Positions 9,001 through 59,217 of a stretch of DNA of 64,000 bases are shown piece after piece. The notes under the pieces were generated by a model. The model was not told where the DNA came from. It saw only the letters and a program-made list of their open reading frames with translations, and made no database searches. Location: the NCBI RefSeq assembly GCF_000255295.1, contig NC_017030.1:3224001-3288000 (forward strand), read 5' to 3'. Position 1 is the stretch's first letter. Each line of letters opens with the position of its first letter. Source of the stretch: Corallococcus coralloides DSM 2259 (GTDB lineage: Bacteria > Myxococcota > Myxococcia > Myxococcales > Myxococcaceae). The translations under genes were made by a program, and so were the position numbers.

Positions 9001-12000
9001 ACGCTTCGGGGAAGGGCGCCCGCGTGGCATTCCACTCCACCAGCACCTGCTGCCGCTCCTCCCCCGCGAGCAACTGCAGCGACGACACGCGCTGATCCGG
9101 ATGCGCGACGAAGCCCTCCACGAGCAGCCGCAGGTGCCGCATCATCCGCACGACGGTCGACCTGTCGAAGAGGTCGGTGTCGTACTCCAGCTCTCCAGTG
9201 AAGCCGTCCTCGCTCCGCGCGAGCGACAGGGTGAGGTCGAACTTCGCGGAGGCGCCCATGCGCTCCTCGACCCGCACCTTCACGCCCGCGAGCGAGAGGT
9301 CCACCTCCGGGATGTTCTGCATGAGGAACAGCACGTTGAACAACGGCGACCCGCGCAGGTCGCGCATCGGCTGGAGCTCTTCGAACGGCACGTACTGGTT
9401 CGCGAGCACCCCCAGCGTGGTGGTGCGCACGCGGCCCAGCAGCTGCCGCACGGTGGGCTCGCCGCCCATCCGGGTGCGCAGCACGAGCGTGTTGATGAAG
9501 AACCCGAGCAGTCCCTCCAGCTGCGCGTCGTTCCGGCCCGCCACGGAGGAGCCGATGCTCACGTCGTCCTGACCGGAGTAGCGGCCAATCAACACCTGGA
9601 GCGCGCCGAGCAGGAACATGAAGGGCGTGAGGCCCTCGCGCACACAGAGGGCCTCCACGGCCCGCGTCAGCTCCAGGGGGAACGCGACCTGCATCAGCGC
9701 GCCGGGATGCGCCTCGCGGAGGCCGCGCGGACGGTCGGTGGGCAGCTCCAGCACGGACGGCATCCCCTCGAGCTGCTGGCGCCACCAGTCGAGCTGCCGC
9801 TCCTTCTCCGCCCCCGACAGCCACTGGCGCTGCCACACCGCGAAGTCCGCGTACTGGAAGGGCAGCGCGGGCAGGACGGGCTGCGTCCCCGCCACCAGGG
9901 CCCGGTAGGACTCCGCCAGCTCCCGCATCAGGATGCTCATGGACCAGCCGTCGAAGACGGCGTGGTGGAGGGTCAACAGCACCAGGTGCTCCTGCGCATC
10001 CAGCACCAGCGCCGACACGCGCAGCAGCGGTCCCACCTCCAGGTTGAATGGGAGCCGCACCTCCAGCTCCGAGCGGCGCTTCACCTCCGCGTCGCGCTGC
10101 TCCGGTGAAAGCGCGCGCAGGTCCACCACCGGCAGCACCAGCGGCTCGGGAGGTGCGATGACCTGCACGGGCGCGCCGGCGTCCTGACGGAAGGTGGTGC
10201 GCAGCGCCTCATGCCGGTGCACCACCAGCTCCAGGGCGCGGCGCAGGGCCTCCAGGTTCAGCGCCCCGGTCAGCCGCAGTGAGAACGGCATGTTGTACGC
10301 GGCCGAGCCCGGATCGAGCTGCTCCAGCACCCAGAGGCGCTGCTGCGCGAAGGACGCGGGCAGCTTCTGGGTGCGCGGCACCGGCACCACCGGGGGCGGG
10401 GCCGCGAAGCGCGGATCCTTCGCCGAGGCCGCGATGCGCACCGCCAGGTCCGCCACGGAGGGGGACTCGAACAACGCCTGCAGGGGCAGGTCCACCTGGT
10501 ACGCCGTGCGCAACCGCGACATCAGCCGCGTGGCCAGCAGCGAGTGCCCTCCCAGCTCGAAGAAGCTGTCGGTGGCGCCCACCCGCTGTACCTGGAGGAG
10601 CGACGCGTAGAGCTCCGCGATCTGGGCCTCCATCGGCGTGCGCGGCGCGACGAACTCGCGCACGGCTTCCGTGGACACGTCCGGCGCGGGCAGGGCCTTG
10701 CGGTCCACCTTGCCGTTGGGCGTCAGGGGCATCGCGTCCAGCACGACCAGCGCGGACGGCACCATGTACTCGGGCAGCCGCTCCTTCATGAGCGCGCGCA
10801 GGGCCTGGGACTCCAGCGTCTGTCCGGGACGCGCCACCACGTAGCCCACGAGCCGTGCGTCGGCCCCGCTGCCGCGCACCACCACGGCGGCGTCGCGCAC
10901 GCCCGGGGCCTGGCTCAGCACCGCTTCAATCTCTCCCAGCTCGATGCGGTAGCCGCGCAGCTTCACCTGGTTGTCGACGCGGTTGAGGTACTCCAGCACG
11001 CCGTGAGCGGCCCACCGCACGCGGTCGCCCGTGCGGTACACGCGCAGGCCCGGCACGCCGCCGTACGCGTCCGGGATGAAGCGATCCGCGGTGAGGTCCG
11101 GCCGGTGGAGGTAGCCCCGGGTGACGCCCTCGCCGCCGATGAACAGCTCGCCCGGCACGCCGCGCGGCACCGGGTTCAGCCCGCTGTCCAGCACGTACAC
11201 CTGCGTGCCGGAGATGGGCCGGCCAATCGGCACGCCGCCCGTACCCGAGGCCACCGCGTGCGCGGTGGACCACACCGTCGTCTCCGTGGGGCCGTACACG
11301 TTCCACAGCACGCGGCAGCGCTGGAGCAGCGACTCGGCCAACTCGCGCGGCAGGGCCTCGCCGCCGGTGAGCGCCGTCAGCTCCGGGCCCTTCCAGTCCG
11401 TCTCCAGGAGCAGCCGCCAGGTGCTGGGCGTGGCCTGGAGCACCGTCGCCCCGCACCGCTGGAGCAGGGCGGCGAGCCGCGAACCGTCCACCGCGATGTC
11501 TCGCGACGCGATGACGACCTGGCCGCCCACCGACAGCGGCAGGAACAGCTCCAGCACCGCGATGTCGAACGACAGCGTGGTGACGGCCACGAGCACGTCC
11601 TTCGAGGACATGCCGGTCGTCTCGCGCAGCGCCGCCAGGAAGCGCACCACCGCGCCATGCGGCACCTGCACGCCCTTGGGACGGCCGGTGCTGCCGGAGG
11701 TGAAGAGCACGTACGCCACGGCCTCCGGCGGCACCGCGTCGCGCAGCGGCGAGCCGTCCTCCGCCGCGATGGCCTCCGCGTCCCCGTCCAGCAGCACCAC
11801 GCGCGCCGAGTGCGGCGGCAGGATGGACTCCAGCGGGCGCTGCGACACCAGCACCGGCATCCCGCTCGCTTCCACCATGTACGCCAGGCGGTCCGTGGGG
11901 AACGCAGGGTCGAGCGGCACGTAGGTGCCCCCGGCCTTCAGCACGGCGAGCACCGCCACCAGCATGTCGAGCGAACGCTCCACGCACAGGCCCACCCGCA

Positions 12001-13657
12001 CTTCCGTGTCCACTCCCAGCCGGCGCAGGTGCCGCGCCAGCCGCGACGCGCGGGCCTCCAACTGCGCGTACGTGAGCGACTGGTCCCCGAAGGTGACGGC
12101 GACCGCGTCCGGCGTGAGGTCCACCTGGGCTTCGAAGGCGCCGTGCTGCGAGCTCCACGGCAGCGGGGCGGGGCGGGGCGGCTGCCAGGCGAGGAGCACC
12201 TCGTGGCGCTCGGCGTCGGTGAGCAGCGGCAGGCGGGAGACGGCCTCGTGCGGACGGCGCACGGCACCCTCCAGCAGCACGCGCAGGTGCTCCGCCATGC
12301 GCGCCATCGTGGGCGCGGTGAAGAGGTCGGTGTCGTATTCGAGGAAGCCCTTGAGGCCCGCTTCCGTCTCCAGCACCTGGAGCATCAGGTCGAACTTCGA
12401 CGTGAACGTGTCCAGCTCCAGGGCCTCCAGCTTCACGCCCTCCACGGACGCCGCGCCGCGGAAGGAGGCCTGGAGCGTGAGCATCACCTGGAAGAACGGC
12501 GTGCGCCCCTGGGTGCGCTCCGGGCGCAGCTCCTCCACCAGCCGCTCGAAGGGGAACTCCTGGTGCTCATGGGCCGCGAGCACCGTCTCGCGCACCTGGT
12601 GCAGCAGCGCGCGGAAGGACGCGGAGGGCTCCACCTGCGTGCGCAGCACCACCGTGTTGACGAACAGGCCGATGAGGCCCTCCACCTCGCCGCGCGTGCG
12701 GCCCGCCACCGGCGAGCCCACCGTCACGTCCTCCTGCCCCGCGTAGCGCGACAGCAGCACCTGCCAGCCCGTCAGCAGCACCATGTAGAGAGAGGCCCCC
12801 TCCTGCTGCGCCAGGGCCTTCAGCGCGTCCGTCAGCTCGCGCGACAGCACGAGCTCATGCCGGGCGCCCCGGCCACTTCGGGCCGCGGGGCGGGAGAAGT
12901 CGGTGGGCAGCTCCAGCGCGGAGGGCACTCCTGCCAGCTGGCGCTTCCAGTAACCGAGTTGCTTCTCCAGCCGGGGCCCCTGCATCCACTCGCGCTGCCA
13001 GACACCGAAGTCCGCGTACTGGATGCCTGGCGGCGGCAGGGGCACGGCCTGTCCTCGCGCGAAGGCTCCGTAGAGGAGCGCCACCTCGCGCACCAGCAGC
13101 GTCATGGACCAACCGTCGGAGACGATGTGGTGCACCACCACCACGAGCAGGTGCTCGTTCGGCCCGGACGTCAGCAGCAGCGTGCGCAGCAGCGGTCCCT
13201 TGTCGAGGTGGAAGGGCCGGGCCGCGGCTTCACGGGCCAGTTGCCATGCTTTCTCCGGCGGCGAGCCCTGGAGGTCGTGCTGCTCCAGCGTGAGCGCCGG
13301 CTCCGGAGACACCACCTGCACGGGGCCGGATTCGTCCTCGCGGAAGGTGGTGCGCAGCACTTCGTGACGGCGCACCACTTCGAGCAGCGCGCGCTCCAGC
13401 ACGGCCACGTCGAGCACGCCTTCCAGGCGCACCGCCATGGGCACGTTGTAGAGGGACGTGCCGGGCTGCAGCTGATCAATGAACCAGAGGCGCTGCTGGG
13501 CGAAGGACAGGGGCAGCGGGCGCGTACGGTCCTGTACCGGGATGAGGCCCTGGACGGAGGTGCCGGCGATGGCCTTCTGCGCGGCCATCTTCTTGAGCAG
13601 CTCCGCGCGCTTCTCGGGTGAGAGGTTCGCGATCCGCTTCGACAGCTCCTGGCTCAT
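1..13657 (-). CDS. Non-ribosomal peptide synthetase, four C-A-T modules plus a partial fifth C domain (3' end outside window)
   Basis: Cytoplasmic assembly-line enzyme. 4552 codons are open from ATG at 13657 (GGAG 8 nt upstream) to the left edge. Order: C1 ~30-470, A1 ~490-985, T1, C2 ~1085-1530, A2 ~1545-2035, T2, C3 ~2130-2575, A3 ~2590-3085, T3, C4 ~3175-3620, A4 ~3640-4140, T4, C5 from ~4235. The HHxxxDG histidines of the C domains start at residues 176, 1231, 2276, 3321 and 4380, all intact. TSGSTG of the A domains starts at 653, 1704, 2750 and 3798. The phosphopantetheine serines in GGHS are 1039, 2087, 3132 and 4190. No epimerase, methyltransferase or thioesterase is present in the visible part. 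Ten-residue codes read by eye: A1 DILQLGVVWK (Gly-like), A2 DLESIGTVIK (unassigned), A3 DAWFLGHVVK (Leu-like), A4 DAKDLGVVDK (Glu, or Gln). A C domain at the N-terminus implies an acyl starter or an upstream partner; no synthetase gene lies upstream here. Confidence 0.97.
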   Translation of the reverse strand, partial: MSQELSKRIANLSPEKRAELLKKMAAQKAIAGTSVQGLIPVQDRTRPLPLSFAQQRLWFIDQLQPGTSLYNVPMAVRLEGVLDVAVLERALLEVVRRHEVLRTTFREDESGPVQVVSPEPALTLEQHDLQGSPPEKAWQLAREAAARPFHLDKGPLLRTLLLTSGPNEHLLVVVVHHIVSDGWSMTLLVREVALLYGAFARGQAVPLPPPGIQYADFGVWQREWMQGPRLEKQLGYWKRQLAGVPSALELPTDFSRPAARSGRGARHELVLSRELTDALKALAQQEGASLYMVLLTGWQVLLSRYAGQEDVTVGSPVAGRTRGEVEGLIGLFVNTVVLRTQVEPSASFRALLHQVRETVLAAHEHQEFPFERLVEELRPERTQGRTPFFQVMLTLQASFRGAASVEGVKLEALELDTFTSKFDLMLQVLETEAGLKGFLEYDTDLFTAPTMARMAEHLRVLLEGAVRRPHEAVSRLPLLTDAERHEVLLAWQPPRPAPLPWSSQHGAFEAQVDLTPDAVAVTFGDQSLTYAQLEARASRLARHLRRLGVDTEVRVGLCVERSLDMLVAVLAVLKAGGTYVPLDPAFPTDRLAYMVEASGMPVLVSQRPLESILPPHSARVVLLDGDAEAIAAEDGSPLRDAVPPEAVAYVLFTSGSTGRPKGVQVPHGAVVRFLAALRETTGMSSKDVLVAVTTLSFDIAVLELFLPLSVGGQVVIASRDIAVDGSRLAALLQRCGATVLQATPSTWRLLLETDWKGPELTALTGGEALPRELAESLLQRCRVLWNVYGPTETTVWSTAHAVASGTGGVPIGRPISGTQVYVLDSGLNPVPRGVPGELFIGGEGVTRGYLHRPDLTADRFIPDAYGGVPGLRVYRTGDRVRWAAHGVLEYLNRVDNQVKLRGYRIELGEIEAVLSQAPGVRDAAVVVRGSGADARLVGYVVARPGQTLESQALRALMKERLPEYMVPSALVVLDAMPLTPNGKVDRKALPAPDVSTEAVREFVAPRTPMEAQIAELYASLLQVQRVGATDSFFELGGHSLLATRLMSRLRTAYQVDLPLQALFESPSVADLAVRIAASAKDPRFAAPPPVVPVPRTQKLPASFAQQRLWVLEQLDPGSAAYNMPFSLRLTGALNLEALRRALELVVHRHEALRTTFRQDAGAPVQVIAPPEPLVLPVVDLRALSPEQRDAEVKRRSELEVRLPFNLEVGPLLRVSALVLDAQEHLVLLTLHHAVFDGWSMSILMRELAESYRALVAGTQPVLPALPFQYADFAVWQRQWLSGAEKERQLDWWRQQLEGMPSVLELPTDRPRGLREAHPGALMQVAFPLELTRAVEALCVREGLTPFMFLLGALQVLIGRYSGQDDVSIGSSVAGRNDAQLEGLLGFFINTLVLRTRMGGEPTVRQLLGRVRTTTLGVLANQYVPFEELQPMRDLRGSPLFNVLFLMQNIPEVDLSLAGVKVRVEERMGASAKFDLTLSLARSEDGFTGELEYDTDLFDRSTVVRMMRHLRLLVEGFVAHPDQRVSSLQLLAGEERQQVLVEWNATRAPFPEACMHSLFEAQVRRAPESVAAVFEGTHLTYAQLDARANQLAHALRRRGVGPEVRVALSVERSLDVVIGLLGILKAGGAWVPVDPLLPRERLAFMLEDSAAQVLVTQQPLVDRFPEALHARALCVDTERESLAQEPTDAPVTGVTPANMAYLLYTSGSTGTPKGTAVEHRSVANLVTHEAVAYGIGPGSRVLQFASISFDLSVEEIFTTLCNGATLVLAPLEKLMPGAPLPVLLREQELSVVSLTPAALAATSSEGLPKVCTVISGGEALPADVVARWAPGRRLLNTYGPTEATVIATFGEVVADGNVPSIGKPLANVRVYVLDAHGQPVPVGVRGELHIGGVGVARGYAGRPGLTAERFVPDAFSGEEGARLYRTGDVVRWRADGQLDFVGRIDAQVKVRGFRIELGEVENALRAAPAVKDAVVLAREDSPGDKRLVAYVVGEALDVTALRSHLKQHLPEYMVPAAFVPMDALPLTSNGKVDRKALPAPDAGLLRASHAYEAPATPLEEKLAALWSEVLRVPTVGRTDNFFELGGHSLLATQLVARVRAAFDVELPLRALFEAPTIAALAGKLQRTSTGARLPPLTRTRTEGPQPLSFAQQRLWFLDQLAPDDASYNLPVALRLLGRLDVESLRRAFEALVARHEALRTTFFEEQGQPFQRIHAPATWALPVEDLSGLEESAREAETLRLATREARQPFHLVHGPLLRTALLRLEEETHVLLVTMHHIVSDGWSMGVLVKELATSYAAFSAGREPSLATLPVQYADFALWQRQWLQGETLDAQLGYWKQQLAGAPAALELPTDRPRPAVQSRRGATVPVHFPSELTDSLRSLAQQEGATPFMLLLSAFQLLLSRYSGQDDISVGSPIAGRTHAEAEGLIGFFVNTLVLRAHVRPAESFRQLLSQVKATTLAAYEHQHVPFEKLVEVLQPSRDLSRSPLFQVMLVLQNAPAEALRVPGMAFQPIPLEGNSSRFDLALTLFEVPQGLTGFLEYSSDLFDAATVQRLMGHFGVLLASLSAQPDARVSTLEVMTAEERKQLLIEWNDTDVAFPRDTCIHHVVAEHARRSPDAVAVRMGERSVTYSALNAWAHGFAVQLHAAGVTRGSRVAVLAERSPELVAGLLGALKVGAAYVPVSPGVPPERLAFMLEDCGASVLLTQQHLRDSLPPLPARVLSLEMETGATQQPLSVTPVGPEDLAYVIYTSGSTGRPKGVAVHHRALMNLVSWHQRTYSLTPQDSTALTAGVAFDASTWEVWPSLASGASLVIPPDAVRAEPSLLLQWLAREAITTCFMPTPLAEAVLREEWPRPMALRALLTGGDALHHGPPPSVPATLFNHYGPTESTVVATFTAVTRDDGTRPPIGRPIANTRTYVLDAWLQPVPVGVPGELFLASEGLAWGYLGQPALSAERFIPHPFSSTPGARLYRTGDVVRWLADGQLDYLQRLDFQVKVRGFRIELGEIEASLLAHASVHEAVVLAREDVSGDKRLVAYVVGEAIDVTALRAHLKQHLPEYMVPSTFVPMDALPLTSNGKVDRKALPVPEASPLADYVGPRNPIEEKLADVFAQVLRVERVGVHDDFFSLGGHSLLATQLVSRIRAAFNAELPLRSLFEAPTVAALAERLRTATSGPRLPPLTRVAHEGPPPLSFAQQRLWLLDQLQPGSAAYNIPAALRLKGQVDIEALRRAFEALVARHETLRTTLVQHQGQPAQCIHAPGTWTLPLLDVSSLPEAQREEEARRLANLEARRPFDLEAGPLLRTSLVRLGDAEHLLLVTMHHIVSDGWSMGVLVRELTALYAAFHAGQVPALAPLPVQYADFSVWQQAWLQGETLETQLAYWREKLAGAPAALDLPTDRPRPPVQSHRGATVDVRLHPEVSQALKALAQREGATPFMLLLAAWQLLLSRYSGQDDISVGSPIAGRTQAETEGLIGFFINTLVLRARVEPRATFRELLAQVRGTTLAAYEHQHVPFEKLVEVLQPVRDLSRSALFQAMFSLQNAPMEALRVPGLSFEQLPLESNSAKFDLTLTMQDSPQGFVGVLEYSSDLFDASTMQRMVGHLGVLLAAIATQPDSTLASLPLLTAPERQRLLVDWNGPSAEFPRDLCLHEAFSAQALRTPDALAVICREEQLTFRELDTRANQLAHRLVKLGVGPDVRVVLCVERSVEALVGILGALKAGGAYVPIDPSYPREWLAHVLQDTGAPVVLTQQRLRDSLPPHSAHTLCLDSDSADLALESQDVPVTSVTPEHLAYIIYTSGSTGRPKGVMIQHRSVLNLRVALATTVHAGAQPGERVSVNAPLSFDASVKQLIQVLDGHTLCIVPDEARADVAELVNRIGQDSLDVLDCSPAHLRLLVDEGLLERKAIPSRVLVGGEAVDPATWRHLAQAPRPRVFNVYGPTECTVDATACAFDASPTPTIGRPLPNVRVYVLDRTLRPVPIGVAGELFIGGEGVARGYLNRPELTAERFIPDAFSSTPGARLYRTGDVVRWRADGMLDYLGRADFQVKVRGFRIELGEIEAALLKHPQVHAAVVLAREDVPGDKRLVAYVVPSEGTETAPTPEALKDWLKQLLPEHMRPSALLVLEALPLNTNGKVDRKALPAPQGTALDSTYVAPRTSAEEQLAALFTQVLHVERVGIYDDFFALGGHSLLATQLVSRVRATFRRELPLRALFEAPTVAALARRIDSEGTTAPSVPLRRAAARGALELLSFAQQRLWLLDQLQPGDSSYNLPTALQLSGHLDVEALRRAFESLVQRHEALRTTFHEHQGQPTQRIHAPVEWTLPRVDLSSLPEAQRKEESRRLADAEARRPFDLARGPLLRSTLVRLEENEHLLLVTMHHIVSDGWSMGVLVREMVAFYEAFTMGGTPALPPLPVQYADFATWQRDWLQGEVLEAQLGYWKQQLSGAPSALELPTDHPRPPVQSHRGATVEVRIPARVCDALKALAQREGATPFMTLLAAFQVLLSRYSAQDDVSVGSPIAGRTQAETEGLIGFFINTLVLRARLDPRSTF

Positions 13658-14020
13658 CTCATGGACTCCGCGCTCGGGGATGTCATCGCGAGCGCCACTT
13701 GGGGGAGTGGCATTCGCGAGAACTCAGGCCTGCTGATGATTCTGGATTGCCACCCTGCGCTGCTCTCTCGCGAGAAGCAGGGGGTGGGTCGAATCCACGC
13801 TGACCACGCTATTCCGTGGGCAGCCAGGCTGTCATGGGGGCGCCCAGCCGGAAGTTCGAGTGAATCCGGGTATTTATGGGAAGAAAAGGGAGCCCCGAAC
13901 TCATCACCGGAAGGACTCACGGTGTCGCTCAGAGGGGAACCTTCTCGCGGGGTCGTCCCCCCGCATGGAGGGGGAGCAGGCCTGGGGTTGGCCTGCTCTC
14001 CACCCGTCATCGACTGTGTT
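13658..14020. other. Intergenic region between the NRPS gene and mscS
   Basis: 363 bases with no convincing gene. It holds the start-side leader of the NRPS gene, an AT-richer patch near 13868-13888 that could be part of its promoter (no clear -35/-10 pair), three short palindromic CTCGCGAG/TCGCGA cores between about 13709 and 13774, and the hairpin at 13973-13999 annotated separately. Confidence 0.6.
13973..13999 (-). terminator. Hairpin downstream of mscS
   Basis: Inverted repeat GAGCAGGCC - 7 nt - GGCCTGCTC, nine perfect pairs extendable by one G-U pair, starting about 20 nt after the mscS stop codon. There is no U-tract, so it is an intrinsic-terminator-like hairpin only; termination is inferred from position. 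Confidence 0.45.
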
Positions 14021-16208: not shown

Positions 16209-16847
16209 TCAGTCGCCCTGGATGGCGGCCTGCCAGTCGCCGTCCGCGGAGATGCCCACGCGCATGCCGATGTAGCTCTTCTGCTCGCGCATGTCGGTGA
16301 TCATCTCGTCCGGATAGATGCCCTTGAGCAGGGCGAAGTCCGCGTCGGTGGCGCCTTCACGGAAGGCGGTGGGCCACCAGTAGAGGTTGCCCTCCTGGTA
16401 GAAGGGGAGGTTGAGGACGTGGACCAGCCGCGCCAGCACCGGCTGCGGGCTGTCCTTCCACTCCTCCTGGATGCGCCAGGTGGTGGCCATGTCCTGGTCG
16501 GGGTCGTAGGAGAAGCGCACGCTCGGGCCCTTCTCGTCGCCCAGCTTCTGGAGCCCCGCGTAGTCGCACGCCACGGCGGCCTTGATGATGCGCTCGCGCA
16601 TGGACGCCACGGCCGGGGGCAGGGGCTTCGCGGTGGGCCTGGGGATGGGGCTCAGCCGGCTCGCCGAGCACGACGCCGCGGCCGGGGCGCTCGGCTTGGA
16701 GGCAGGCGGAGCAGGGGGCGGGGCGGGCTTGGGCGGGGTGGGCATGGTCGGGCTCGGGGCAGGGGACGCCGCGGGCGTCCGGGGTGACTCCGTGCAGGCC
16801 AGGCAGGCAGCGAGCAGACCAGCGGATAGCAGGGGAGCGCGGTTCAT
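16209..16847 (-). CDS. Hypothetical lipoprotein with Pro/Ala-rich linker
   Basis: 212 aa, not recognised as a named family. Signal peptide with lipobox-like LLAAC near residue 15, then a low-complexity Pro/Ala/Ser stretch to about residue 75 that probably spans the periplasm or cell wall. A compact C-terminal domain follows, rich in Trp and Tyr (TTWRIQEEW, NLYWWPTAF). The domain ends SADGDWQAAIQGD. CTAGACC stands 7 nt before the ATG with no Shine-Dalgarno, which suggests a leaderless transcript. It is convergent with the hydrolase gene. Confidence 0.75.
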   Translation of the reverse strand: MNRAPLLSAGLLAACLACTESPRTPAASPAPSPTMPTPPKPAPPPAPPASKPSAPAAASCSASRLSPIPRPTAKPLPPAVASMRERIIKAAVACDYAGLQKLGDEKGPSVRFSYDPDQDMATTWRIQEEWKDSPQPVLARLVHVLNLPFYQEGNLYWWPTAFREGATDADFALLKGIYPDEMITDMREQKSYIGMRVGISADGDWQAAIQGD

Positions 16848-16886
16848 GTCCCCGGGTCTAGTCCAGGGCAGGTCAGGATTGCGTGC

Positions 16887-21884: not shown

Positions 21885-23072
21885 TCACCCCACCCCGTTG
21901 CTGGGGATCCACTCCGTCGCGGGAGTGCTTCGAGCACGCATCGGCACCAGGCGCGTGCCTGACACCACGCGCAACCGCGTGCCGCGCCAGTCCACCGTGC
22001 GCCGGAACGCTCCGTGCCACCATGCGGCGAAGAGCAGCGCGTCCTTCACCAGCACCGCGGGCACCGCGCGCAGGGACACCGGCTGGGGCCGCAGCGACCG
22101 GAACACCGCCACGTCCACCCAGACCTTGCCCAGCGCCACCGCCAGCGCCGCCAGGCCGGTGAGGGCGGACGGGTGGATCACCGCGCCCAGCACCGCGAGT
22201 GGAACCGGGTTGAGGAGCGCCTGCGCCACGTACGTCGAGGGCGATACCGCTGTGCGGTGAATGACGCTCCAGCGCAGGTAGCGCTGGAAGAAGGCGTCCA
22301 CGCTCTTGCGCAGGGACACGTTGAAGACAGGGGCGTGCGCCAGCACCACGCGCTTGCCCAGCTTGCGCGTCACCCACTGGCCAATGACGTAGTCCTCCGC
22401 CAGCACGTCCTTCACGGAGAAGAAGCCGCCCAGCGCCTCCACGTCCTCGCGGCGCAGCGCCATGGACTTGCCCACCACGATGTCCCGGTCCGCCACGTGC
22501 TTCGCGGCGATCATCCCCGCCGCCGCGCTGGAGGACAGGTGCAGGTTGTCCAGGAGCGAACCGAAGGTCTGCTCACCCAGGCCGACCACCGGGTGCGTCA
22601 CGCAGCCCACCGTGGGGTCCTCGAAGGCAGCGGCGATCTCCTCCAGGTAGCCGTCCCCCACGCGGGTGTTGCTGTCGCTCACGACCCACAAGTCAAAGCG
22701 GGCCTCGGACGACAGCGTCACCAGCTGGTTCACCTTGGGGTTGAGGCCGGGCTCGCCCTCCTGGAGCACCACGCGCATGACGTGGGGCCACTTCGCCTGC
22801 GCGGCCCGCGCCACCGCCCAGGCCGGGTCGCGCGCGTCCTTCACGCCCAGCAGGACTTCGTAGTGGGGGTAGGGCAGCCGCGCGAACCGGGCGAGGTTGG
22901 CTTCCAGGTCGTCATCCACGCCGCACAGCGGCTTGAGGATGGACAGGCCGGGTTTGTGCGTGGGGGCCGCGGGGACGGTGCGGCGGTGGCGGCGCACGAA
23001 CAGCGCCTGGAGGAGGAGGGCCACGAGGCCCACTGCGGACGCGGCCAGGAGGAGGCTGGAGGCGATGAGCAT
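21885..23072 (-). CDS. GT21-family glycosyltransferase (ceramide glucosyltransferase/HpnI-like)
   Basis: 395 aa membrane-bound glycosyltransferase. An N-terminal helix (residues 3-25) is followed by a GT-A domain with KPLCGVDDDLEANL, D1 and D2 in SDSNTRV (about 135), D3 in LAEDYVIG (about 228) and QRYLRW (about 268), the signature order of family 21. Hydrophobic C-terminal segments lie at about 288-330. Known members glucosylate ceramide or attach N-acetylglucosamine to bacteriohopanetetrol (HpnI). No hpnH/hpnK genes lie beside it, so the lipid acceptor stays open. CTAGGGT ends 6 nt before the ATG with no Shine-Dalgarno. It lies 87 nt downstream of phoU. Confidence 0.88.
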   Translation of the reverse strand: MLIASSLLLAASAVGLVALLLQALFVRRHRRTVPAAPTHKPGLSILKPLCGVDDDLEANLARFARLPYPHYEVLLGVKDARDPAWAVARAAQAKWPHVMRVVLQEGEPGLNPKVNQLVTLSSEARFDLWVVSDSNTRVGDGYLEEIAAAFEDPTVGCVTHPVVGLGEQTFGSLLDNLHLSSSAAAGMIAAKHVADRDIVVGKSMALRREDVEALGGFFSVKDVLAEDYVIGQWVTRKLGKRVVLAHAPVFNVSLRKSVDAFFQRYLRWSVIHRTAVSPSTYVAQALLNPVPLAVLGAVIHPSALTGLAALAVALGKVWVDVAVFRSLRPQPVSLRAVPAVLVKDALLFAAWWHGAFRRTVDWRGTRLRVVSGTRLVPMRARSTPATEWIPSNGVG

Positions 23073-23086
23073 GTCGCCACCCTAGA

Positions 23087-29137: not shown

Positions 29138-29617
29138 TTACGGGCGCCGCAGGGACCGCCCCGGCGCGGCCATCCACTGCAGGGAGAAGACGCGTCCCTC
29201 GGGCCGCAGGGCGACCGCGCAGCCCTTGCGGAGCTTGTCCGGCAGCGCATGGCCCAGCGCGAGCGCGGCGGCGCGCTCCAGCGAGGGATTGTGTCCCACC
29301 AGCGCCCAGCCCGGGCCCACGTCGCGCGCCAGCTTGAGCACGTTGCGGGCCGCGCCCTTCATGGGCACGAGCGCGGGGTGGACCTCCACGTGGGACAGGC
29401 CGAGCGCGTCCGCGAGCAGCTCCGCGGTCTGCACCGCGCGCACCAGGGGGCTGGTGATGATGCCCATGAGCGGCGTGAGGCGCGTGAGCTTCTTCGCGTG
29501 CTGACGGAAGGCGGCGCGGCCCTGGGGCGTGAGGGCGCGGGCCTCGTCACCCAGGGCGTGGGAGTCCTCGGCCACGGCGTGGCGCACGAGGAGGAGGGGC
29601 AGATCGCGTTCGGCCAT
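29138..29617 (-). CDS. sixA: SixA-like histidine phosphatase (phosphoglycerate mutase superfamily)
   Basis: 159 aa, a minimal histidine-phosphatase domain. The catalytic RHA motif has His13 (LLVRHAVAED), the second basic cluster is SPLVRAVQTAELL (about residue 55), and the C-terminal catalytic histidine is in LVGHNPSLE (about 109). The length matches SixA, which removes phosphate from histidine phosphotransfer proteins. In a myxobacterium rich in two-component systems that role is plausible but inferred; other small phosphatases share this fold. CTACAAC lies 8 nt before the ATG. Confidence 0.85.
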   Translation of the reverse strand: MAERDLPLLLVRHAVAEDSHALGDEARALTPQGRAAFRQHAKKLTRLTPLMGIITSPLVRAVQTAELLADALGLSHVEVHPALVPMKGAARNVLKLARDVGPGWALVGHNPSLERAAALALGHALPDKLRKGCAVALRPEGRVFSLQWMAAPGRSLRRP

Positions 29618-29682
29618 GGGCGCGCGTTGTAGTGCGATTCGCGCCCGCGTGGATGTGACGAACGGGTGGACTGCTGAGTGGA

Positions 29683-31343: not shown

Positions 31344-33119
31344 CTAGAAGCGCCCCCGCTTGAGCAGGTCGCCCTTGGAGAGCGAACCCAGCAGGCGCCG
31401 GCTTCCGTCCACCACGGGCAGCCGGTCCAGCTCCGTGTGGCCGAACCGCGCGGCCACCTCCGACAGGGACAGGTCCGGGGTGATGGGCTGCACGCCGGTG
31501 TCCATCACGTCCGCGGCCACGGTGGCCTGGAGCAGCGAGTGGTCCGGCAGGTGGCCCTTGAGCGCGTCCAGGGTGATGACGCCCAGCAGGCGCCCCTCCG
31601 CGTCGGTGACGTAGAGGTCCGCGCCCGCGGGCTGCTCCAGGAGCAGCACCACCACCTCGTCGAAGGGCGCGGAAGGTGGCACCCGCTGCGTGGCCGGTGA
31701 CAAGAGCGAGCGCACGCCTTCCTCCCGCAGCCAGTGCGGCACGGAGGCGGGCACGCGCACGTCGCGCTTCGCGAGCACGGACGTGTAGAGCGACTCCGGC
31801 TCCAGTCGGCGGCTGACGACGGCCGCCACCACCGCGGCGAGCATCAGCGGGAGGATGAGATCGTAGTCGCCGGTCATCTCGAAGATCATCAGCACCGCGG
31901 ACACGGACGCATGCGTGGTGCCCGCGAGCACCGCGCCCATGCCGAGCAGCGCGTAGGCCCCGCTGGGCGCCGCGCCACCCGGAAGCGCCCGCTCCACGAG
32001 CATCCCGAACGCGCCGCCCAGGAGCGCGCCGAAGAAGAGGGACGGGGTGAAGAGCCCGCCCGGCACCCCCGCGCCCGCGCACAGCGACGTCACCGCCAGC
32101 TTCGCCAGGGGCAGGATGAGCAGCAGCGTGAGGGGCAGCGTCCCGTGCAGCGCCATGTTCACGGAGTCGTAGCCGTTGCCCATGAGGTACGGCCCCGCGA
32201 TGGCGGTGAGGCCCACCACCGTCATGGCGACCAGCGGCATGAACGGGGTGAGCCACGACGGCAGCCTGTCCAGGAGGTCCGACGTGAAGTTGATGCCGCG
32301 CACGTAGAGCGCGGAGGCCCCACCCACGAGCACGCCCAGCATGAGCGCGAGCAGCAGCTCCCGCGGGTGGGTGAGGGCGTAGTGGGGGATGACGTAGCTG
32401 GGGTGGTCCGCGATGAGCGTGCGCGACACGAGCGTCGCCACCACGCACGACACGACGATGGGGCCGAAGAGCTCCAGCGCGAAGCTGCCCAGCAGCACCT
32501 CCAGGCCGAAGAGGGCCGCGCCGATGGGGACGTTGTACGCGGACGCGATGCCCGCCGAAGCGCCGCACGCCACCAGCACGCGCGCCTGGCCCGGCCCCAG
32601 CTTCAGCCACCCGGACAGCGCGGACCCGCTGGCCGCGCCCGTCTGGAGGAGCGCGCCCTCGCGGCCCAGAGGCGCCCCCAGCGCCACCGCGAGGATGGAT
32701 ACGAAGCCGCGCAACAGCGCGCGAGGGAAGGGCAGCCGGCCGGACTTCACCCAGATGGATTCGATGATGCCCGCCGTGCCGTGGCCTCGCAGGGGCTGGC
32801 CCACCACCAGCGACACCAGCGTCACCAGTGCGCCGCCCAGCACCGGCACCAGGAACCGGCGCCAGCCCGGCGACGCGAGCGCGCCCTCCAGGAAGTGCTC
32901 CGTGTTGCTCTGCCAGAACAGGTGCTGGGTGAAGCGCAGCACGGCGAGCAGCGCCACCGCGCCCAGGCCGGAGATGAGGCCCACGCCCACCACCAGCACC
33001 CAGAAGCGCCGCTCCTGCCCCAACAGGCCCTGGAGGATCCGCCGCAGCCAGGGCGAGGGAGCCCCCGTCCTCAAGTCGGGATGCACGGCTCCGGATGCGG
33101 GTTCGGGCATGGCCTCCAC
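31344..33119 (-). CDS. CLC-family chloride channel/transporter with C-terminal CBS pair
   Basis: 591 aa. The membrane domain (about 35-435) has the CLC selectivity segments: LGAPLGREGALLQTG (GREG-type, with Ala where Pro is usual), AYNVPIGAALFGLEVLLGSF, and GAGVPGGLFTPSLFFGALLG. The gating-glutamate position of GREGP is retained. The C-terminal part (about 460-590) is two CBS domains that usually bind adenine nucleotides. The start is taken as GTG at 33119, because a -10-like TACATT lies 8 nt before it; an ATG three codons in (33110) is the alternative. Cl-/H+ exchange or channel activity cannot be told apart here. Confidence 0.92.
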   Translation of the reverse strand: MEAMPEPASGAVHPDLRTGAPSPWLRRILQGLLGQERRFWVLVVGVGLISGLGAVALLAVLRFTQHLFWQSNTEHFLEGALASPGWRRFLVPVLGGALVTLVSLVVGQPLRGHGTAGIIESIWVKSGRLPFPRALLRGFVSILAVALGAPLGREGALLQTGAASGSALSGWLKLGPGQARVLVACGASAGIASAYNVPIGAALFGLEVLLGSFALELFGPIVVSCVVATLVSRTLIADHPSYVIPHYALTHPRELLLALMLGVLVGGASALYVRGINFTSDLLDRLPSWLTPFMPLVAMTVVGLTAIAGPYLMGNGYDSVNMALHGTLPLTLLLILPLAKLAVTSLCAGAGVPGGLFTPSLFFGALLGGAFGMLVERALPGGAAPSGAYALLGMGAVLAGTTHASVSAVLMIFEMTGDYDLILPLMLAAVVAAVVSRRLEPESLYTSVLAKRDVRVPASVPHWLREEGVRSLLSPATQRVPPSAPFDEVVVLLLEQPAGADLYVTDAEGRLLGVITLDALKGHLPDHSLLQATVAADVMDTGVQPITPDLSLSEVAARFGHTELDRLPVVDGSRRLLGSLSKGDLLKRGRF

Positions 33120-33211
33120 ACCTGTCCAATGTACGGAGGCGGGAAGGGCCTTCCCGAAACCGCGTGGTGATTACCGGTGGCGCCCGCCCGGCTGACTGCC
33201 CTCCGGGAGGG

Positions 33212-34993: not shown

Positions 34994-35944
34994 TCACCCG
35001 TCCAGGTCGTTGAGCGCGTCAGGCGGCAGCGGCGAGGCGCCCGTCACCGTGCCGTCCATGTCCAGGGGCAGCGTGGACGGATCGACCTCTGGCGGAGGGC
35101 TGTTCTCGAAGGGCGCGGCGAGCACGGGGCGAGCGCCACCCGCACCGGGAGGCGGACGCAGCACGGGCCCAGGAGGAGGCAGCCCCGAGTGCCGCCGCGC
35201 GGCCTCCATCAGGGCGTTGTGGTGGCGGTACCGCGCCTCCACGAGCTTGTGGATGAGCAGCGGCCCGCCGGGCACGCGGCGCGCGGTGAGGGCCTGGGTG
35301 GCCTTGCGCACCGGGTAGCGCACGCGGCGGATCTGCACGCGCCAGCCCTTGGGGGTGAAGGTGAAGACGCCGTAGGCGGGGCGCAGGTCGCCATCGCGCG
35401 GAATGCCGGCGCTGGCCACGTCCGCGATGAGCATCCGGCCCACGCGCCGGCGGTAGGGGAAGTGCAGGTGCCCGAAGGCGCACGCGGCCGCGTCCAGGTG
35501 CGTGAAGAAGCGGCGCACCGCGTGGTCGTCCAGCGTGGGGTCCAGCGACTCCTCCAGGTTGCGGGGATTCGCGTGGCAGATGAACAGGTCCTGTCCCTTG
35601 CGCGGCGTGTAGCGCAGGGAGAAGGGCATCTGCCCCAGCTGATGGAGCAGCGCGTCGCCCAGCTGGTCGCGCGTCCAGCGCAAGAGCTCCGTCTTCCAGT
35701 GGTCGCGCTCGCGGTACGCACCGCCCAGGTAGTTGCCGGCGAGGTACGCGTCCGTGTTGCCCATGATGAGGGCGTGGCACTTGCTGAAGAGCAGCTCCAC
35801 CGTCTCGCGCGGATGCGCGCCGCGCAGGGCCAGGTCTCCGGCCGCGACGATGTAATCCGGCGCCACCGATTTGGTGATGTCGTCCAGCACGGCCTCGCAG
35901 GCCGGAAGGTTCCCGTGAATGTCCGCGAGGATGGCGACCCGCAT
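34994..35944 (-). CDS. YfcE/MJ0936-type metallophosphoesterase
   Basis: 316 aa. N-terminal calcineurin-like domain with ILADIHGN (residue 4), AAGDLALRG (about 36), MGNTDAYL (about 62), ICHANPR (about 120) and FGHLHFPY (about 158), a complete metal site. After residue 230 a Pro/Gly-rich tail of about 80 residues follows, unusual for the family. ATG at 35944 fits the family start; CTAGGAT lies 10 nt before it, suggesting a nearly leaderless message. The substrate is unknown. Its start is only 13 bases from the phoR stop. Confidence 0.87.
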   Translation of the reverse strand: MRVAILADIHGNLPACEAVLDDITKSVAPDYIVAAGDLALRGAHPRETVELLFSKCHALIMGNTDAYLAGNYLGGAYRERDHWKTELLRWTRDQLGDALLHQLGQMPFSLRYTPRKGQDLFICHANPRNLEESLDPTLDDHAVRRFFTHLDAAACAFGHLHFPYRRRVGRMLIADVASAGIPRDGDLRPAYGVFTFTPKGWRVQIRRVRYPVRKATQALTARRVPGGPLLIHKLVEARYRHHNALMEAARRHSGLPPPGPVLRPPPGAGGARPVLAAPFENSPPPEVDPSTLPLDMDGTVTGASPLPPDALNDLDG

Positions 35945-35957
35945 GGCCGCCCCCATC

Positions 35958-37319
35958 CTAGCCCGTCGCCGCCGTCGGGCCAGCCGCCGCGGGTAGAAAA
36001 ATGACGAAGGTACTGCCCACGTTCGGCTGGCTCTCCACCTTCACCTCGCCGTCCATCGCGCCCATCAGGTGCTTCACGATGGAAAGGCCCAGTCCCGTCC
36101 CCCCCATGTCCCGGCTGCGGCCCTTGTCCACCCGGTAGAATCGCTCGAAAATCCGGGAAAGATGCTTGGGCTCGATTCCCACGCCTGTGTCGCGCACGCG
36201 CACGACACACCGGCCGCCCTCGTACGCTCCGTCCACATCCACCCGGCCGCCCGCGGACGTGTACTTCACCGCGTTGTCGAGCAGGTTGAGGAGCACCTGC
36301 TCGATGGCCCGCCCATCCCCCATGGCCACCAGCTCCGGAGGCACGTGCAACCCGATTTGCTGGTTCTTGCCCTCGGCCTTGGGGCGCACGCCTTCCGCGG
36401 CGCGGGAGACGGCCAGGGCCAGGGGGACCTCCGTGCGCTGGAAGGTCATCTCGCGCGCCTCCAGGCGGGAGAGCTCCAGCAGGTCCTCCACCAGCTCGGA
36501 GAGGCGCTCGGACTGACGGTGGATGATCTCCACCATCTTCGGCGCCACCTGGGTGTCCTGGAGCGCGCCGCCCTGGAGCGTCTCCGCGTAGCCTCGGATG
36601 GCGGTGATGGGCGTGCGCAGCTCGTGGGAGACGTTGGCCACGAAGTCCTTGCGCACCTTCTCCAGCCGGCGCAGTTCCGTGACGTCGTGGAAGACGGCGG
36701 CGCTGCCGGGCAAATCCCGCCCCACGGGCGTCACGCGCACGGCCAGGGTGCGGGAGTACAGCCCCTCGAGCGTCAGCTCCAGCCGCGTGGAGGCGCCTTC
36801 ATGACAGGCGCGGGCCACCGCGTCGTTGAGGGCCTCGTTGCGGATGAGCGCGAGCGGCCGCTGGCCCACGATGGCGCCGTTGGGGGGCCGGAGCATCTCC
36901 GCGAGCGCGTCGTTGTGACGCACCACGGTGCCCTCCGCGTCCGTTACCCAGAGCCCCTCCGCCATGCCGTCCAGCACGGCGGTGAGGATGCGCGCTTCCT
37001 GATTGAGCGCGGCGGCGCGCATGGACAGCTTGTCGTCCAGCGTGTCGATGGCGTCTTCCAGCTGCGCCAGGTCATCCGTGCGCTCCAGGCCCGCGGGCGG
37101 TGCCACGTCCATGCCCTCGGCCAGCGACTGCGTCTTCTGGGTCAGCGCGCGAAGCTGCCGCTCCATGGCCACGCGGCTGGTGCCCAGGGCCAGCGCGGAG
37201 CCCGCCAGCGTGACGAGCCCCGCGGCGAGCGCGCCCGCCGGGTGCCCGAAGAGCACGAGCAGCGTCGAGACCAGCAGGGGAGGAACGAGCAGGGCCAGGA
37301 GCGTGAAGCGCAGGGGCAT
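35958..37319 (-). CDS. phoR: Phosphate-regulon-type sensor histidine kinase PhoR
   Basis: 453 aa. Two N-terminal hydrophobic segments (about 4-24 and 30-48) without a large periplasmic domain, as in PhoR. A HAMP-like stretch follows, then a PAS domain at about 110-215 (DGMAEGLWVTDAEG). The HisKA region has His232 in SHELRTPITAIRGY, and the HATPase domain shows NLLDNAVKYT (N box), VRDTGVGIEPKHL (G1), IFERFYRVD (F) and GGTGLGLSIVKHL (G2). It starts 7 nt after the phoB stop. It should phosphorylate the adjacent regulator at low phosphate and be restrained by PstSCAB-PhoU; the family role is known, the link here is inferred. Confidence 0.92.
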   Translation of the reverse strand: MPLRFTLLALLVPPLLVSTLLVLFGHPAGALAAGLVTLAGSALALGTSRVAMERQLRALTQKTQSLAEGMDVAPPAGLERTDDLAQLEDAIDTLDDKLSMRAAALNQEARILTAVLDGMAEGLWVTDAEGTVVRHNDALAEMLRPPNGAIVGQRPLALIRNEALNDAVARACHEGASTRLELTLEGLYSRTLAVRVTPVGRDLPGSAAVFHDVTELRRLEKVRKDFVANVSHELRTPITAIRGYAETLQGGALQDTQVAPKMVEIIHRQSERLSELVEDLLELSRLEAREMTFQRTEVPLALAVSRAAEGVRPKAEGKNQQIGLHVPPELVAMGDGRAIEQVLLNLLDNAVKYTSAGGRVDVDGAYEGGRCVVRVRDTGVGIEPKHLSRIFERFYRVDKGRSRDMGGTGLGLSIVKHLMGAMDGEVKVESQPNVGSTFVIFLPAAAGPTAATG

Positions 37320-48298: not shown

Positions 48299-48338
48299 AG
48301 GCCAGCGCCCGGACGGGGCATCCGTTAAGGTTCCGGCC

Positions 48339-49004
48339 ATGTTCACCGGACTCATCCAGGACACTGGCACCGTCACCCGCGTCACCTCTGGCGCGATGAC
48401 CGACTTCTGGATTCGCACCTCGCTGGGCGCGGAGGCCTTCGCCCTGGGGGAATCCATCGCCGTGGACGGCGCGTGCCTCACGGTGGTGGAGAAGGGCGGA
48501 GACACCTTCCGCGTGCAGGCGGCCCCGGAGACGCTGCGGCGCACCACCCTGGGGGACCGGAAGACGGGCGACAAGGTGAACCTGGAGCGGGCGCTCGCCC
48601 TGGGGGACCGGCTGGGCGGACACCTGGTGTCGGGCCACGTGGACGCCGTCAGTGAAGTGCTGGAGACGTTCGCGGAGGGCGGCTCGTGGGTGATGGTGTT
48701 CCGGCTGCCCCCGGAGCTGGCGCCCTGCTTCATTGAAAAGGGCTCCGTCACCATCGACGGCATCAGCCTCACGGTGAACGCGGTGGATGCCAGCACCTTC
48801 CGGGTGCAGCTGATTCCGGAGACGCAAGCGCGCACCACCCTGCACGGCAAGGGCCCTGGGGCGAAGGTGAACCTGGAGGGCGACCTCATTGGCAAGTACG
48901 TGGCCCGGCTGTACGCCCTCCGGGGGGCCCCGGAGGCCGCCGCCCAGGGAGCGGGGCTGACGGAGGCGGTGGTACGGGCAGCGGGTTTCAGCCCTCGCGG
49001 GTAG
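48339..49004 (+). CDS. ribE: Riboflavin synthase, alpha chain
   Basis: 221 aa made of two lumazine-binding repeats. MFTGLIQDTGTV opens the first; the second repeat begins near residue 100, with CFIEKGSVTIDGISLTVNAVD. It dismutates two 6,7-dimethyl-8-ribityllumazine molecules into riboflavin. TTAAGGT ends 7 nt before the ATG. It is 40 nt after ribD. Confidence 0.96.
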   Translation: MFTGLIQDTGTVTRVTSGAMTDFWIRTSLGAEAFALGESIAVDGACLTVVEKGGDTFRVQAAPETLRRTTLGDRKTGDKVNLERALALGDRLGGHLVSGHVDAVSEVLETFAEGGSWVMVFRLPPELAPCFIEKGSVTIDGISLTVNAVDASTFRVQLIPETQARTTLHGKGPGAKVNLEGDLIGKYVARLYALRGAPEAAAQGAGLTEAVVRAAGFSPRG

Positions 49005-53126: not shown

Positions 53127-53160
53127 GGCGTCCGTGCCGGGGGCTGCTATCCTCCCGGGC

Positions 53161-53724
53161 GTGTCCCGTTTCGAAGCCCTGCTCGACGCGTTCTTCTACC
53201 GCCCGGACGAGGACGTCGGCGGCCTGCTGGACTTCGCCGCGGGCAGTGACGACCTGGCGCGGCCGCTGCTGGAGGAGGAGCCCGTCGAGTACCTGGCCTT
53301 CCGCCTGGAGGCGGAGTGCTACGCGGTGCCCATCCTCGCGGTGAGGGAGATCTGCAAGGTGCCGCTGCTCACGGAGATTCCGCGCGCGGAGCCGCAGCTT
53401 TTGGGCGTGATGAACCTGCGCGGGGAGCTGTTGCCCGTCTACGACGTGAAGCTGCGGCTGCGGCTGGCGGACGCGCCTCCGTTGGTGGCGGGGCCGGACG
53501 CGGGCCTGCCGCCCCGGGCCGCGCGCATCCTGGTGCTCAAGACGGCGGACGGGCCCGCGGGCGTGTGGGTGGACTCGGTGGCGGGCGTGGTGCGGCTCAA
53601 GCCGTCCATGGTGGAGCTGTCGCCCGCGGGGCTGCGCGGGGACCGCGACTGCGTGGCGGGGCTGGGGCGCAAGGGCTCGCAGCTCTACATCCTGTTGGAT
53701 CCGGAGCAGGCGCTCGCCCCATGA
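53161..53724 (+). CDS. cheW: CheW-like coupling protein with N-terminal extension
   Basis: 187 aa. CheW fold at about residues 42-185: EYLAFRLEAECYAVPILAVREI, LLGVMNLRGELLPVYDVKLRL, and VWVDSVAGVVRLKPSM. The first 40 residues (VSRFEALLDAFFYRPDED...) form an acidic, probably helical extension not usual for CheW. GTG at 53161; a -10-like TGCTATCCT ends 7 nt before it and there is no Shine-Dalgarno, suggesting a leaderless transcript. It overlaps the next cheW by 4 nt. Confidence 0.9.
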   Translation: MSRFEALLDAFFYRPDEDVGGLLDFAAGSDDLARPLLEEEPVEYLAFRLEAECYAVPILAVREICKVPLLTEIPRAEPQLLGVMNLRGELLPVYDVKLRLRLADAPPLVAGPDAGLPPRAARILVLKTADGPAGVWVDSVAGVVRLKPSMVELSPAGLRGDRDCVAGLGRKGSQLYILLDPEQALAP

Positions 53725-58764: not shown

Positions 58765-58833
58765 ATCGCTGGCTGCATGACAGCCGCCGCACAATCCCGG
58801 GCCGGCCGGCGCGCGGGTGCTAGGCTGGTGCCC

Positions 58834-59217
58834 ATGTCGCAGCAGATCCGCGCGCTGGTGGTGGATGACTCGCAGGCCATGCGCCGCAGCATCATGTACG
58901 CGCTCCAGCGCCTGGCCGACGTGGTCTGTATCGAGGCCCAGGACGGCGTGGAGGGGCTGAAGAAGCTCTCCACGCAGGGCCGCTTCGACCTGGTGATGAC
59001 GGACATCAACATGCCGTTGATGGATGGGCTGAAGCTCATCCACCACATCCGCCAGACGGAAGACCACCGGGCGGTGCCCATCGTCGTGGTGACGACGGAG
59101 GGCGCGGCGGCGGACCGGGCGCGGGCCATGGCGCTGGGGGCCACGGCCTACCTGGTGAAGCCCGTGCAGGCCCGCGTGGTGCTGGACACGGTGAAGGAAC
59201 TGCTGAAGCTCGGCTGA
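58834..59217 (+). CDS. CheY-like response regulator (last of the Che cluster)
   Basis: 127 aa receiver. VVDDSQAMRRS, phospho-acceptor Asp57 in VMTDINMPLMDGLKL, Thr in VVVTTEGAAADR and Lys in YLVKPVQAR. It matches the first CheY closely around the phosphorylation site but differs elsewhere. ATG at 58834, with TGCTAGGCT ending 7 nt before it and no Shine-Dalgarno. Two CheYs in one cluster allow one output regulator and one phosphate sink. Confidence 0.92.
   Translation: MSQQIRALVVDDSQAMRRSIMYALQRLADVVCIEAQDGVEGLKKLSTQGRFDLVMTDINMPLMDGLKLIHHIRQTEDHRAVPIVVVTTEGAAADRARAMALGATAYLVKPVQARVVLDTVKELLKLG

Follow-up and report, generated by a model that had tools for sequence, protein, structure and literature searches.

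TAnnnT boxes close to start codons as candidate promoters of leaderless or nearly leaderless mRNAs in Corallococcus coralloides

Leaderless mRNAs transcribed from a TANNNT box next to the start codon are a class of phenomenon already known from other bacteria, and they were predicted for delta-proteobacteria in 2011 (PMC3160421). In that study, Zheng et al. (2011) reported TA-like leaderless signals in 8 of 33 delta-proteobacterial genomes, with a mean of 15.8% of genes; its main text leaves the eight positive genomes unnamed and has no matches for Myxococc, Sorangium or Anaeromyxobacter. TANNNT and leaderless mRNA have likewise been treated together in Mycobacterium tuberculosis and Streptomyces, in work which is based on RNA sequencing and concerns another phylum (PMC3898074, PMC4895711). 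No report of leaderless transcripts in myxobacteria was recognised from titles or the beginnings of abstracts in the literature searched.

The window analysed here is a 64,000-nt stretch of C. coralloides DSM 2259 (positions 3224001-3288000 of one contig of 10,080,619 bases; G+C 70.4%). A preliminary description of it proposed that genes lacking a Shine-Dalgarno sequence carry a CTAnnn(T) element at a fixed short distance from the start codon, and that their transcripts begin at that codon. Judged on sequence, it is very probable that such elements are sigma-70-type -10 boxes giving rise to leaderless mRNAs, or to nearly leaderless ones with leaders of 1-4 nt.

Boxes in the window

The seven strings cited in the preliminary description are all present in the window, at the spacing and before the start codons given for them. 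They are listed below together with an eighth case. Throughout, the gap is the number of nucleotides between the end of the 6-nt box and the start codon.

53145-53153, plus strand: extended -10 box TGC-TATCCT of cheW1, with TATCCT at 53148-53153
53161-53163, plus strand: GTG start of cheW1 and predicted +1 of its mRNA; gap 7, start called by the motif-blind caller
58820-58836, plus strand: CTAGGCT-7-ATG of cheY2 (ATG 58834); TAGGCT at 58821-58826 with TG before it, the extended -10 form
48326-48341, plus strand: TAAGGT-7-ATG of a 221-aa ORF (ATG 48339); a clear case absent from the preliminary description
23070-23085, minus strand: CTAGGGT-6-ATG of the family 21 glycosyltransferase gene GT21 (ATG 23072; Pfam Glyco_transf_21)
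33117-33133, minus strand: TACATT-8-GTG of a CLC channel gene (GTG 33119; Pfam Voltage_CLC)
35942-35961, minus strand: CTAGGAT-10-ATG of a YfcE-like metallophosphoesterase gene (ATG 35944; Pfam Metallophos PF00149)
16845-16861, minus strand: CTAGACC-7-ATG of a lipoprotein-like ORF (ATG 16847); weak box, no final T
29615-29632, minus strand: CTACAAC-8-ATG of the SixA-like histidine phosphatase gene sixA (ATG 29617; Pfam His_Phos_1); weak box, no final T

Five of the seven cited examples carry TAnnnT, while sixA (TACAAC) and the lipoprotein-like gene (TAGACC) lack the final T. The window has 31 TAnnnT over both strands; 6 of them lie at gap 6-10 from a plausible start.

Among the genes examined, cheW1 (53161) is the best case. 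Its product has a CheW domain (Pfam PF01584, E 6.5e-29). Together with its TG, the box (TGCTATCCT or TGCTATCTT) is found in 16/16 genomes of the genus, the studied genome included. TGCTATCCT also precedes cheW1 in two other genera, G018 (gap 8) and G022 (gap 7), where the spacer has changed and protein identity is about 66%; since the distance from box to GTG differs by 1 nt in a relative, the stretch between them is not coding. The box is absent in G016, G019 and G020, and the upstream DNA suggests that in these genomes cheW1 abuts or overlaps its upstream neighbour. No conserved -35 was found among the cheW1 upstream regions compared. The product of cheY2 is a response-regulator receiver (Pfam Response_reg PF00072), and in G018 and G022 this gene is preceded by TATGTT at gap 7.

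Conservation varies between the other genes. All five genus relatives with readable DNA upstream of GT21 have TAGGGT at gap 6 or 7 (the sixth is cut off there); G018, G022, G016 and G021 have an AGGAG-type start in place of the box. A switch of initiation mode between genera is possible at GT21 (21885-23085, minus strand; loci L132, L133, L134 and L136). TACATT precedes the CLC gene in 5/5 close orthologues aligned. The YfcE-like gene has TAnnnT at gap 9-11 in 12/12 relatives. In relatives of the lipoprotein-like ORF, which has no Pfam match, the corresponding string is TAGACC, TAAACC, TACACC or TACAAC, and the box is lost in G013. TACAAC is found before sixA in 5/6 relatives and is absent in G022.

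A gene caller blind to the motif chose other starts for cheY2 (58828), the YfcE-like gene (35956), the CLC gene (32999) and the lipoprotein-like gene (16610). Orthologue alignments fit the starts at 58834, 35944 and 16847 for cheY2, the YfcE-like gene and the lipoprotein-like gene, respectively.

Distance peak and probable promoter character of the box

The genome-scale sample consisted of four 400-kb blocks (1.6 Mb, about 16% of the genome), and relatives from the same genus, from other genera and from another family of the same order were compared with it. Genes were called by codon usage, blind to promoters and Shine-Dalgarno sequences. From 1101 calls in the studied genome 1095 were kept; those dropped lay less than about 150 nt from a block edge or were without an upstream neighbour. 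Starts less than 25 nt from a neighbour on the same strand were classed as operon-internal and tallied apart (n=216; other starts, n=879). Distance counts were compared with 100 dinucleotide shuffles. For the same script, a 200-kb portion of a plasmid of Deinococcus deserti, whose group is known to have leaderless genes, served as positive control, and a 200-kb portion of a Caballeronia plasmid as negative control; the latter record was picked via tblastn of cheY2 against plasmids, and the G+C contents of the two (61% and 63%) are below that of the studied genome. In a comparison with 29 and 42 annotated genes of the control plasmids, the caller found the stop of 26 and 39, and its start matched the annotated one in 18/26 and 31/39 of these. 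Within positions 1-14020 of the window the caller placed no gene wholly inside, though the list of ORFs has entries as long as 1025 aa in that stretch.

The genome-wide comparison with shuffles, which the preliminary description had itself named as a test, gives a clear peak. TAnnnT stands at gap 6-10 before 64/879 starts that are not operon-internal, compared with a shuffle mean of 8.9 (sd 2.9, maximum 15). The excess before starts exceeds chance and reaches beyond the window. The distance is short, as had been proposed; it is not fixed, and gaps 6, 7, 8, 9 and 10 form a band with 11, 14, 15, 15 and 9 cases against about 2 per position elsewhere. The C of the proposed element also falls away: it precedes TA in 36% of the 64 motif genes and in 34% of the background, so it was rejected as part of the motif, which has TAnnnT as its core. 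Subtracting the shuffle mean from the strict count (64 minus 8.9, of 879) leaves about 6% of the non-operon starts, probably a minimum, since a gene is counted only if it has TAnnnT and its start was called correctly. When any plausible start is allowed, TAnnnT is found in 100/879 cases and seven permuted A/T motifs in 26-71; this count is less clean than the strict one.

The peak depends on genomic context, with 35/364 divergent starts, 29/515 same-strand starts (at least 25 nt from the neighbour) and 6/216 operon-internal starts having the box (shuffle mean for the last 1.4, maximum 5). Internal in-frame ATG or GTG decoys have it in 3/7363 cases. Among intergenic ATG or GTG triplets upstream of genes the figure is 18/663; part of the boxes may therefore belong to promoters of leadered mRNAs or to different starts. 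In the Deinococcus deserti plasmid the peak is 11/84, most of it at gap 6, and the Caballeronia plasmid gives 0/104. TAnnnT is also in excess in G066, another genus of the same family (11/226; shuffle mean 2.3), and in G032, which belongs to another family of the same order (29/214; shuffle mean 1.7). In G032 (L197-L216) the signal is denser and the gaps are possibly bimodal at 6 and 10, though numbers are small.

Motif genes in general lack a Shine-Dalgarno sequence, as the preliminary description had noted for its examples: a Shine-Dalgarno 4-mer is present in 4/68 of them and in 266/811 others (p 4e-7). Three places in the genome have an intact anti-Shine-Dalgarno pattern of 16S RNA, so Shine-Dalgarno-led and leaderless genes can coexist. 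Upstream of the box, TTGACA is matched best at spacers 17 and 16 (means of 1.66 and 1.55 over a pool of 112 motif genes); spacers other than 16-18 have a mean of 1.27 (sd 0.12, maximum 1.53). A -35 signal 16-17 nt upstream of the box is thus present but weak. Extended -10 promoters have the form TGnTATAAT. TGnTAnnnT is likewise carried by cheW1 and cheY2; unlike extended -10 promoters, however, the pooled motif genes mostly have G alone at -14 (68/112, p 2e-8), with TG in only 11/112, and the extended form was rejected as the general one. The G at -14 and the -35 match are typical of a sigma-70-type -10 box whose -35 is weak.

Other origins of the boxes were considered. TAnnnT occurs where the Shine-Dalgarno sequence is missing, as would be expected if it were a translation element that keeps the start region A/T-rich and unstructured. 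This is very improbable: such an element would be equally useful at operon-internal genes, where TAnnnT is rare; TAnnnT goes together with the G at -14 and with the -35 match at spacers 16-17; and the permuted motifs CATnnnT, ATCnnnT, TCAnnnT, ACTnnnT and TACnnnT show no comparable peak at the starts of the studied genome. The peak could also be a by-product of stop codons, if starts are often directly preceded by the TAG or TAA that ends the neighbouring gene, or by the in-frame stop that delimits their own ORF. TAG does make up half of the boxes in the studied genome (34/68). However, the third base is G equally often with TA in frame (13/26) and out of frame (21/42), the peak is strong at divergent genes, TAT and TAC boxes such as that of cheW1 exist, and a T at the sixth base sharpens the peak. 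A stop-codon origin is extremely improbable and was rejected for the peak. It is scarcely credible that the seven examples were picked by chance in looking for CTA: CTA occurs 270 times in the window (92 + 178 on the two strands) and the final T is missing in 2/7 examples, but the excess at genome scale and the conservation of the cheW1 and cheY2 boxes across genera contradict it, with sixA and the lipoprotein-like gene excepted.

Stop codons are retained as a confounder for the YfcE-like gene, where the TAG of the box (35955-35961, minus strand) doubles as the stop codon of the upstream gene. The box is likewise a stop after a long open frame in 5/6 genus relatives and in G018, G022 and G019; in the sixth genus relative, a 102-aa frame lies ahead of it. 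In three other genera (G016, G020 and G021) TAnnnT is retained and the upstream gene does not terminate in it. By eye, the C-terminus encoded by the gene upstream of the YfcE-like gene resembles a histidine kinase.

Two further observations were counted against the promoter reading: those M. xanthus transcription start sites that were taken from PMC8844925 are located 21-297 nt ahead of their genes, and GT21 orthologues in other genera use Shine-Dalgarno sequences. What the sequence statistics establish is the box itself, the peak in its distance, the context in which it occurs, the lack of a Shine-Dalgarno sequence and the purine pattern described below. Candidate leaderless promoters, as first proposed, are supported by a mostly non-operon-internal peak at genes lacking a Shine-Dalgarno sequence, the weak -35 match and the avoidance of purines.

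Position of the predicted 5' end

Bacterial RNA polymerase prefers to start at position 7 after the -10 box, with positions 6-9 in reach, and favours a purine as +1 that follows a pyrimidine as -1; discriminators rich in pyrimidines move starts downstream (PMC5730371). An RNA start fixed at position 7-8 would predict purines there at larger gaps. At gap 8 (21 genes), purines occupy the 7th base in 14% and the 8th base in 24% of cases; at gaps 10-11 (26 genes) the 7th base is a purine in 19%, and at gap 9 (21 genes) in 48%. In a test whose strata were distances from the start codon and whose null was 2000 gap permutations, purines are depleted at positions from 7 onwards after the box and before the start codon (z -4.04, reached by 0/2000 permutations). 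Twelve control motifs give z -0.93 to +3.29, the highest (GAnnnT) having the opposite sign, and TAnnnA/C/G gives z -2.66. The depletion is found in the studied genome (z -3.89), in G032 (z -2.46) and in same-strand genes (z -3.77); divergent genes alone show a weaker effect (z -1.75, n=56). The base at -1 is a pyrimidine in 56/68 motif genes and in 176/266 Shine-Dalgarno-led genes (p 0.012), which fits the known preference for purine +1 and pyrimidine -1 (PMC5730371); in G032 the difference is not significant (p 0.19). General work on start sites was found in the literature searched, and no description of this purine-window pattern was recognised there.

The purine depletion can be read as selection for a start codon that is the first usable initiating purine, a reading which is firmest at gaps 6-8; at gaps of at least 9, a leader of 1-4 nt is also possible. 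In the proposed mechanism, a sigma-70-type promoter with core TAnnnT, often a G two bases ahead and a weak -35 would direct RNA polymerase to start at the start codon or within a few nucleotides of it. Where the box is farther away, the positions at which initiation is normally expected tend to be pyrimidines, and the first good initiating nucleotide would then be the A or G with which the start codon begins. The resulting mRNAs would be leaderless or nearly so, and the ribosome would initiate on them without a Shine-Dalgarno sequence. From these patterns we infer that the box drives transcription, where exactly the 5' end lies and that the leaderless mRNA is translated.

A variant compatible with the mechanism is that the boxes are real -10 boxes and that in many genes RNA starts 1-4 nt before the start codon. 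Gaps of 8-10 are found in 39/64 strict motif genes, compared with 6-7 bp in Deinococcus radiodurans (PMC12340547); the modal start in E. coli is 7 bp past the box, and starts more than 2 bp past this position are rare (PMC5730371), so gaps 9-10 (24/64) may yield short leaders. In the YfcE-like and CLC genes of the window, the 7th base past the box is G. On the other hand, gaps 8 and 10-11 mostly have pyrimidines, which are disfavoured as +1, at positions 7 and 8, and pyrimidine-rich discriminators push starts downstream (PMC5730371). Short leaders in many genes are possible, but on balance unlikely. A bolder form of the start-codon reading, put forward tentatively, is that the distance from box to start is loose and that pyrimidine filling sets the 5' end, the start codon being the first purine met; the translation start would then be set by the scanning of polymerase for a start site, and exactly leaderless mRNAs could arise at all gaps of 6-11. 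Initiation at the start codon, originally claimed for all seven examples, is best qualified: the YfcE-like and CLC genes may have leaders of 1-4 nt, and the case for sixA and the lipoprotein-like gene is weaker.

Comparison with known systems

If this explanation holds, leaderless mRNAs carry some first genes of Myxococcaceae, among them a CheW gene directly behind another gene of its cluster. Gene starts could then be corrected and internal promoters predicted, and a Gram-negative, developmentally complex group would become available for studies of leaderless translation.

A close likeness is to the TA-led genes of Zheng et al. (2011), in which TANNNT replaces the Shine-Dalgarno sequence as it does here; theirs lies about 12 bp upstream of the start, while the first T here is 12-16 bp upstream (PMC3160421). 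The tests of context, -35, purines and conservation are additions of the present analysis. In Deinococcus-Thermus, TANNNT adjoins the start codon as it does here, is conserved between species and is followed by a rise in RNA (PMC12340547). The distance there is about 6-7 bp, compared with 6-10 here, most being 7-9. In D. radiodurans, genes of this kind make up nearly one third of the total (PMC12340547); in C. coralloides the predicted ones are fewer.
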